From an uncultured Pseudomonadales bacterium (GTDB lineage Bacteria > Pseudomonadota > Gammaproteobacteria > Pseudomonadales > Azotimanducaceae): a stretch of DNA of 64,000 bases. A program made the position numbers and the translations under genes. Shown here piece after piece: positions 49,379-50,457 of this stretch; positions within the stretch are counted from its first letter, which is position 1, and every line of letters begins with the position of its first letter. The stretch is taken from the NCBI GenBank assembly GCA_958296405.1, contig OY282519.1:3146132-3210131 (forward strand), given 5' to 3'. Below the pieces are notes generated by a model. It saw only the letters and a list, made by a program, of their open reading frames with translations. It made no database searches and was not told the origin of the DNA.

Positions 49379-50107
49379 CTAGCCCGCGGCGGCGGCCTGC
49401 AACAGGCGGGGCAGATAGCGGCGCGCGCGAGCCACCAGTTCCGCCTCGTTGGTAGCCCGCGCCGGCTGAAACTTCACACGATGACCGAGCCAGCGCCACA
49501 AGCGTTGCACGCCACGTTCACCTGGCGTGACACGCCGTGCGCCAGTGAGGCCGAAGGCATCGTTCACCCACGCCGCCACCTCCGCCGGCGTCGCCAGATG
49601 CAGCGCTTGGCGGCGCCTTCGCAGCCGCCGCAGCGATTCGCCGCGGCGTTCGCTTTGGTTGCAGTTGCGTTTCATCTGGCGCAGCACCGCGCTCGCAGCC
49701 CGCGGGTCTTGCATGAGCGCGTCGAGTTCCGGGCGCAAGGATTTAAGCACCTTGCGCCATGCGGCGCTGCCTTGCGCCTTCTCCGTTAGCGTGCCGATGG
49801 CATGGGCAGCGCTATCCCGCTCGCGGTGGCCGCCCTCGCGGGCGCGTCGGAAGATCTCCCGCCAAGCGCCAAGATCATGCACACGCCCGCGCCGACACGG
49901 GCAAAGCTCGCGCAATACCGCGCAACGGGCACCGTGATCGCTGCTGCGAAGCGCGGTGAGGAGATGGCCGATGTGATCTGGCCGGCCGACACGGCAGCCA
50001 GCCGCCGCTGCGGCGCCAATGGCTGCCGGTTGCGGGGCCGCGGCAGTCAGTCTGGATACCTTGGGTGCGAGTGCGGAACGTCTCGCCCGTAGGCCGGCGT
50101 CTTCCAT
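49379..50107 (-). CDS. Basic helical-repeat (HEAT-like) protein in the RiPP locus
   Basis: The frame from ATG 50107 encodes 242 residues, rich in Arg and Leu with repeated helical pairs (HLLTALRSSDHGARCAVLRELC, AWREIFRRAREGGHRERDSAAHAIGTL). The organisation is HEAT-like. The first ~35 residues overlap the RiPP precursor gene out of frame, so the true start may lie within 50000-50047. No metal or nucleotide motif is seen. Being encoded directly after a leader-peptide gene, it may bind or handle the precursor, as some repeat proteins do. The family was not identified. Confidence 0.5.
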   Translation of the reverse strand: MEDAGLRARRSALAPKVSRLTAAAPQPAAIGAAAAAGCRVGRPDHIGHLLTALRSSDHGARCAVLRELCPCRRGRVHDLGAWREIFRRAREGGHRERDSAAHAIGTLTEKAQGSAAWRKVLKSLRPELDALMQDPRAASAVLRQMKRNCNQSERRGESLRRLRRRRQALHLATPAEVAAWVNDAFGLTGARRVTPGERGVQRLWRWLGHRVKFQPARATNEAELVARARRYLPRLLQAAAAG

Positions 50108-50352
50108 TCATGGCCGCCGGCGGCGGCTTGGAGATCGGCGCTGGTGAGCCTGGCATCCGGCGGCAGCACGAGATGCGCCGTGGCCGCGTTCTCCTCGTGA
50201 ACCGTGATCGACAAGGACTGGGGCACCTCAATGCCAAGCGCCTCCTTGATCGCAGCCTTCGGGTCATCGATCAGGCGCGCCCGAAAGCCTGCGTCCGCAG
50301 CGGCCCGATTGATGAGCTCCACCCGCATTTCTCCGTGGGTCTTCGTCGTCAT
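50047..50352 (-). CDS. NHLP (nitrile hydratase leader) family RiPP precursor candidate
   Basis: The 101-residue product starts at ATG 50352 with an AAGGAG ribosome site. Its first ~78 residues match nitrile-hydratase-alpha-like leaders: MRVELINRAAADAGFRARL, LIDDPKAAIKEALGIEVPQ and SLSITVHEENAATAHLVLPP. Such NHLP leaders precede RiPP cores and usually end in GG. Here GG is at 79-80, followed by a 21-residue core (81-101) beginning HEWKTPAYG and ending PRYPD. No maturase, transporter or radical-SAM gene lies nearby, so it is orphan or depends on distant enzymes. A catalytic nitrile hydratase is excluded because it lacks the C-x-x-C-S-C motif. Confidence 0.7.
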   Translation of the reverse strand: MTTKTHGEMRVELINRAAADAGFRARLIDDPKAAIKEALGIEVPQSLSITVHEENAATAHLVLPPDARLTSADLQAAAGGHEWKTPAYGRDVPHSHPRYPD

Positions 50353-50457
50353 GGCATTTTCTCCTTAAAAAGCTGTGTGGTGTCGTGAACACCGCTGGGC
50401 TCCGCCCTTGTGCCACGCTCTCACGCTATACCTGCACCCCCGGCATGTCAACGCGAT

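Follow-up and report, generated by a model that had tools for sequence, protein, structure and literature searches.

A dispersed family of NHLP-type RiPP precursors and a candidate prenyltransferase gene run in an uncultured Pseudomonadales bacterium

Described peptide-terpenoid hybrids and NHLP systems

RiPP-terpenoid hybrids are known (PMC13290415). In NctPC one fused ABBA/cyclase enzyme is described to carry out both geranylgeranyl transfer and cyclization, leaving a C20 unit on Trp (Hubrich et al. 2024, PMC13290415). Prenylation by MppC is reported to be leader-dependent, and to involve an L(x)4L motif (PMC12715784), which is listed as a leader element used also by SrpI (PMC10858898) and MprC (PMC12455567). 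The srp clusters of sponge microbiomes are described as combining the precursor SrpE, with core LCCCW, the YcaO protein SrpC and the brominase SrpI (PMC10858898); the words prenyltransferase and terpene are absent from the searched text of that article. Combinatorial arrays of NHLP precursors have been described in Pelotomaculum and Azospirillum (Haft et al. 2010, PMC2887384), and as MprE1-10 (PMC12455567).

The genome of the window (G000) and that of its nearest relative (G008) host NHLP precursors which resemble several of these systems and differ from all. Unlike in NctPC, as described in PMC13290415, PT-barrel and cyclase-like domains reside here in separate proteins, a prenyl synthase is encoded beside them, and in place of a C20 unit on Trp there are many scattered NHLP precursors, in which the constant aromatic residue is Tyr (22 of 22 distinct cores) and Trp is found in nine of the 22. 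Judging from sequence, split enzymes, an own synthase, many precursors and the lack of a constant Trp would be new relative to the known hybrids. The likeness to the mpp cluster lies in the long structured leader with L(x)4L that MppC is reported to need; the mpp product is in contrast a lanthipeptide geranylated on Trp, with a Nif11-like leader and the terpene synthase MppD (PMC12715784, PMC11791876). As in the NHLP arrays, one leader is joined to many cores and NHLM export genes are present, but the arrays described are tied to a cyclodehydratase or LanM, and their cores are rich in Cys, Ser and Thr (PMC2887384, PMC12455567).

The srp clusters share with the genes analysed here the NHLP leader, L(x)4L, an NHLM-type exporter, a homologous PT-barrel protein and a homologous cyclase-like domain, which is there fused to an NHLP leader. 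LCCCW-core NHLPs accompanied by these homologues are found in G001-G005, G007 and G014. They differ in that their Cys/Trp cores lack Tyr and HxH, YcaO is present (checked in G003, G004 and G005), and in the aligned fusions Ser takes the place of the second Asp of the DXDD motif. The genome-wide search for YcaO genes proposed in the preliminary description returned no match in G000, nor in G008, and YcaO maturation is rejected on this ground. Cys is missing from all 22 distinct cores, and neither the LCCCW core of srp precursors nor the Cys of LanM lanthipeptides is found.

Srp-type loci with an NHLP leader fused to a cyclase-like domain, and a PT-barrel protein encoded near an LCCCW precursor, were found in records assigned to several phyla. 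Fused-leader genes map at L067:6116-7426 (+), L069:7034-8332 (+) and L071:12509-13858 (-), and are found in L077, L078, L086, L088 and others; several of the MAGs compared are presumably of sponge origin. The homologies make it possible that an isoprenoid step has been overlooked at srp-type loci. One such locus encodes also a 783-aa protein (L067:7517-9868, +) that combines a fatty-acid-desaturase domain (98 bits) with a nucleotidyltransferase stretch resembling GlnE (26.5 bits). Another NHLP variant is found in a genus member, G005 (L068:3421-15622), where ECIC, CQC or CACM end the cores of three NHLPs; the locus also encodes two homologues of the PT-barrel protein, an exporter and a maturase of MNIO type, which is HvfB-like but scores below cut-off. 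In two MAGs, titled Silicimonas and Rhodobacteraceae (L080:4561-8746 and L085:10001-14152), an NHLP with core IGDIDTW is found with a PT-barrel homologue and a tryptophan halogenase, the latter Pfam-tested in L080 and called by similarity in L085.

The window gene and its paralogues

The window is the whole stretch of 64,000 nucleotides analysed. It contains, at 50047..50352 on the minus strand, an ATG-started gene coding for a 101-aa NHLP (proteusin) RiPP precursor. The product matches TIGR03793 (leader_NHLP) over residues 7-80 (63.4 bits, cut-off 50.9, E 1.3e-17), and is 53-66% identical to 15 paralogues encoded by the same genome. The leader, delimited by the HMM match and by the leader alignment, covers residues 1-80 (50113..50352, minus strand) and terminates with Gly-Gly at residues 79-80. 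Its L(x)4L motif (50131..50148, minus strand) is formed by L69 and L74, each conserved at 90% or more in the family alignment. The 21-aa core HEWKTPAYGRDVPHSHPRYPD (50050..50112, minus strand) carries the family motif, His at +1, Tyr and H-x-H. A Shine-Dalgarno sequence, AAGGAGA (50360..50366, minus strand), lies just upstream of the ATG, and comparable sequences are found ahead of the paralogues; a promoter-like TTGACA ... TATAGC(GT) element (50425..50451, minus strand) is similar to elements ahead of most array genes. The preliminary description had read the ORF as a 101-residue NHLP-type precursor with a ribosome-binding site, a GG at residues 79-80 and a 21-residue, Cys-free core, and all this is borne out; lanthionine chemistry is, as it stated, unlikely, because the core lacks Cys.

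The Pfam NHase_alpha model matches residues 21-65 of the product (28.0 vs cut-off 27.2 bits). Cys is absent from the whole protein, and the Cys motif of nitrile hydratases is thus lacking. The core is identical in the G008 orthologue. The core and stop codon (66 bases) differ between the two genomes at two sites, both at codon position 3; the 245 upstream bases of the gene show 18 substitutions (position 3 in 11 cases), as well as a gap of three bases. From this pattern, selection seems to preserve the gene in its role as a precursor. A degraded nitrile hydratase, named in the preliminary description among the findings that would refute it, is rejected, because the leader scores over the cut-off, the core looks selected and the family is intact in the relative.

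The gene had been called an orphan, and possibly a minimal RiPP. Neither term suits a gene with 15 paralogues in a genome that also encodes an NHLM exporter and, in one run, candidate maturation enzymes. RiPP maturase or exporter domains were not found in the 10 neighbouring genes scanned, one of which encodes a glutathione-synthetase-type ATP-grasp protein; the statement that none lies nearby holds for these genes, but not for the genome as a whole. In G000 there are 16 NHLP precursor genes, 15 with a core, and the same number was recovered again by profile, two more matches (E 0.09 and 0.2) being left out. In addition to the window gene, the set includes a tandem array of ten (2.558-2.563 Mb), a lone gene with core HGDWNLGHVYQSHPHA (1.295 Mb), two genes near the exporter (3.527 and 3.532 Mb), one heading the putative prenyltransferase run (2.040 Mb) and a leader gene without core (2.283 Mb). 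The 14 such genes of G008 are the window orthologue, an array of eight, two at the counterpart of the 2.040 Mb locus, one full-length and one truncated gene at the exporter locus, and the coreless gene. The coreless 68-aa leader (L024:9306-9512 and L066:6224-6430, both minus strand) is kept in both species, precedes an FAD-oxidase-like gene (named by eye), and is perhaps a leader domain with another use.

Seven other species of the genus were searched, and carry other NHLPs, each including one with core LCCCW. In a set of 369 genomes from the class, G000 among them, compared to E 1e-12, three others matched, all with other cores. A scan of the genome contig collection, made with degenerate patterns that may miss distant members and possibly excluding the window's own genome records, detected 20 loci, of which five belong to the G008 record and the remaining 15 have different cores or lack a core of this kind. 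Earlier reports of an NHLP family with His+1, Tyr and HxH were not found in the literature searched, of limited coverage.

The 30 precursors of G000 and G008 include 27 with a core, and 22 cores are distinct. The leader ends with Gly-Gly or Ala-Gly and is followed, as is usual in the family, by a hypervariable core. His at +1 and Tyr are present in 22 of 22 distinct cores, and H-x-H follows Tyr in 21. The leader/core split was placed at the Gly-His junction, so His+1 is partly found by construction; the three coreless genes, however, stop short of this junction, and a free alignment shows almost no variation at G80 and H81. In a shuffle control of 2000 rounds H-x-H after Tyr was found in 2.1 cores on average (maximum 7), a comparison overstating independence because the 22 cores are related by descent. 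Clustering below 0.6 similarity gives 14 groups, and the motif is preserved in 13 of them. His and Pro are the most frequent core residues, and Cys never occurs. At the other aligned core columns no residue exceeds 0.36, save for Pro before HxH, at 0.55.

The core HGDWNLGHVYQSHPHA is found inside the array in G008 and 1.26 Mb from the array in G000, letter-for-letter identical. The G000 gene lies near two sulfotransferase genes and a glycosyltransferase gene, and near a transposase-like gene recognized by eye. Precursors appear to move yet keep the core, if one goes by these sequences. The conservation of HGDWNLGHVYQSHPHA away from the array suggests that local enzymes are seemingly not needed, and movement of precursors with kept cores is expected if the enzymes act in trans. 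A TTGAC[AG] element is located at -96 to -104 ahead of 19 of 21 window- and array-type genes of the two genomes, the exceptions being the array genes arr2 of G000 and arr3 of G008; in most of the 19 a TAGCGT-like box follows. The two exporter-side genes lack TTGAC[AG], and the precursor of the prenyltransferase run has TTGACA at -59. Hairpins can be drawn before many genes. Folding z-scores, obtained with an approximate, self-written dinucleotide shuffle, range from -1.3 to +1.1 in 23 of 24 5'UTRs, exporter-side gene 2 scoring -2.1, and RNAalifold on the 5'UTRs gave two pairs and no compensatory changes. An RNA element in the 5'UTR is rejected on this ground, and only the promoter-like similarity is retained.

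The ORF at 49379..50107 (minus strand), conserved, encodes a 242-aa protein, basic (pI 11.7), all-helical and weakly HEAT/ARM-like. Its model has pLDDT 72, residues 1-43 being below 50; the best armadillo/HEAT match in Foldseek has E 0.31, none reaches E 0.001 or lower, and TIGR/Pfam-type models gave no family match over cut-off. The start codon (ATG in G000, GTG in G008) lies within the precursor gene, and the overlap spans 61 bases. Both differences between the two genomes in the overlap leave the precursor sequence unchanged, and in the HEAT-like frame they hit codon position 1; this indicates that the overlap is kept as precursor code. Homology outside G008 starts near residue 43-46 or later, and for this reason translation from an in-gene start is plausible rather than proved; later common starts (TTG, GTG) would remove part of the conserved region. 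HEAT-like matches (37-92% identity) were found in seven of 28 other genomes; some contigs of the relatives are short, and the 37% match, in G010, is partial, spanning 65 residues.

Candidate maturation and export genes

The 2.040 Mb precursor, 1.16 Mb from the window gene, is followed by three genes on the same strand, at intervals of 74, 112 and 78 bases, in the same order in G008. The first encodes a 345-aa protein with no Pfam or NCBIfam match. Its alignment retrieved no PDB chain by sequence search, and no known family. The AlphaFold2 model, based on an alignment of 21 sequences, has pLDDT 87.7 and pTM 0.88. All the 38 PDB matches found by Foldseek at E 1e-3 or lower are prenyltransferases (TM 0.38-0.58), which we take to be all of the ABBA/PT-barrel type, and include the RiPP enzymes DciF and PagF. 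E42, D53, E108, R192, H317, K319, K334 and Y336, located on the strands of the barrel, are invariant in the 20 of 21 rows used for the count, the truncated L085 row having been dropped. For the peptide prenyltransferase that a RiPP-terpenoid hybrid needs, G000 has a candidate recognized by its predicted PT-barrel fold and encoded far from the window gene.

A profile of the PT-barrel protein detected 11 matches in nine of 29 genomes, all of them no farther than about 2 kb from an NHLP match, and no copy away from an NHLP gene; there is some circularity in this association, the profile having been derived from those same 11 NHLP-adjacent copies. Genomes hit by the NHLP profile and lacking a PT-barrel match are G006 (64% complete), G011 and G016, and in the latter two the NHLP matches are weak and look like nitrile hydratase alpha itself. 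Five of the 15 contig-collection loci outside G008 lack a homologue (L076, L084, of 6.9 kb only, L089, L090 and L091). Homologues are found also beside NHLPs whose cores have neither Tyr nor His (LCCCW, CxC), and the PT-barrel protein might accordingly have another role.

The second gene encodes a 319-aa class II terpene-cyclase-like protein, in which DADDTS at residues 98-103 includes DXDD, the acid motif of these enzymes. Hits of the family profile include drimenol synthase (2.1e-7) and a squalene-hopene/tetraprenyl-curcumene cyclase (2.5e-6); the best PDB matches of the profile are nitrile hydratases, retrieved via the fused leaders. The Pfam match of the protein itself is under the cut-off (23.1 vs 26.1 bits). 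The third gene encodes a polyprenyl synthase (182.7 bits). Three polyprenyl synthases are found in each of G000 and G008, one in G003 (86% complete), and two in each of G004 and G005. Of the other two of G000, one is encoded after an xseB-like gene (named by eye), as is usual for ispA. Chain length in IspA-type synthases is affected by the residue that precedes the first DDxxD; the residues at this site are HAYSL in the ispA-like synthase and HASSL in the extra one.

A C39-peptidase ABC exporter is encoded near the 3.527 and 3.532 Mb precursors. It scores 902 bits with TIGR03796 (cut-off 853), and it is by this model, among TIGR03794, TIGR03796 and TIGR03797, that an NHLM exporter is recognized in the genome. 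A second ABC gene (TIGR03797, 698 vs 709) and an HlyD gene (TIGR03794, 76 vs 156) remain under the cut-offs. Directly after the precursor array, both genomes carry a gene for a TPR protein with a 2OG-Fe(II) oxygenase domain (PF13640, 68.3 bits), 97% identical between them. The one MNIO match of G000 is not beside a precursor. Two full Trp_halogenase matches fall at 2.986-2.991 Mb, and a third, weak, at 3.54 Mb; there is no NHLP match at 2.986-2.991 Mb, and the halogenases are therefore not linked to the precursors. SapC- and cupin-8-type genes are found between the two full matches, which are flavin halogenases (L116:8000-12863, minus strand).

Proposed maturation scheme and alternatives

The reading we favour, with confidence a little above even, is that of a dispersed NHLP precursor family, one leader and many cores, with Tyr (or His) prenylated in trans during maturation. 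The argument for prenylation rests mainly on the predicted fold, the gene run and the extra synthase. The PT-barrel enzyme would be guided by the leader, act in trans on all cores and prenylate the invariant Tyr, or less likely His. The extra synthase would supply the prenyl donor, probably C15-C20, and the cyclase-like protein would cyclize or remodel the attached chain; the TPR/2OG-Fe(II) oxygenase may hydroxylate the cores. The C39 peptidase, an enzyme type with a cleavage preference beyond Gly-Gly, would cut after (A/G)G, leaving His as N-terminus, and the product would be exported.

The defining maturation may rather be the work of the oxygenase, by hydroxylation or oxidative crosslinking of Tyr, His or Pro, the PT-barrel and cyclase-like proteins serving only the adjacent precursor(s). 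We regard this as rather doubtful. The place and score of the oxygenase gene fit, as does the abundance of His and Pro in the cores, but array and window members share their leader type and their Tyr ... HxH core pattern with the precursor that heads the prenyltransferase run. Hydroxylation is on the other hand compatible with prenylation, and the distribution does not separate the two, as the two genomes that carry the oxygenase are also those that carry the run. The PT-barrel and cyclase-like proteins could also be chaperones or scaffolds binding the leader, with folds kept and catalysis lost. The presence of homologues beside NHLPs with very different cores, at YcaO, MNIO and halogenase loci, and the fusion of the srp-type cyclase-like domain, with motif DXDS, to an NHLP leader would agree with such a role, which is nonetheless unlikely given that DXDD is intact in G000 and G008, that the run includes an extra prenyl synthase and that charged residues on the barrel strands are invariant.

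Little or no processing is an option that we consider quite unlikely: the C39 exporter would cut and secrete plain His/Tyr peptides, binding for example Cu or Zn. It would be in line with the presence of the exporter, with the lack of YcaO matches and with the metal-site-like core motif (His+1, HxH). NHLP loci are however described as often paired with tailoring enzymes (Haft et al. 2010, PMC2887384), a PT-barrel homologue is found beside the NHLP in most srp-type and halogenase loci compared, and the genome has the prenyltransferase run. A two-gene system, either a minimal RiPP or a peptide-binding pair made of the precursor and the HEAT-like protein, is highly improbable. The overlap and the gene order are kept in G008, as expected of a pair, and the neighbour is, as initially described, real, basic and overlapping the 3' end of the precursor gene. 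Yet, within the flanks fetched, six other relatives have no NHLP beside the HEAT-like gene, their NHLP matches, where present, being on other contigs, and tblastn found no HEAT-like gene in the stretches fetched around the other 15 precursors of G000. On this distribution a dedicated partner is rejected, and the HEAT-like protein is, as far as sequence can tell, probably a bystander with no functional tie to the precursor.

Within the prenylation scheme, a speculative extension, which we hold for improbable, is that the products are terpene-anchored metallopeptides, with a copper/zinc site reminiscent of the histidine brace, a known copper-site type, and an isoprenoid membrane anchor. The site would be made of the freed N-terminal His, the fixed H-x-H and Tyr, and the peptide would be held in membranes by a C15-C20 isoprenoid, cyclized and attached to Tyr (or His). 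Were this the case, one leader would display about fifteen metal-site variants on the surface of the cell or of a host, most of them expressed from genes with a promoter-like element of their own.

By these data an apparent orphan becomes a testable trans-acting system made up of fifteen natural substrates, an exporter and the genes for three enzymes. If the prenyl/terpene step is true, an isoprenoid step would be suggested also for the srp-type NHLP clusters, because those compared hold homologues of both proteins, and the known ribosomal peptide-terpenoid hybrids would be joined by ones that use NHLP leaders, split enzymes and Tyr or His as the modified residue.
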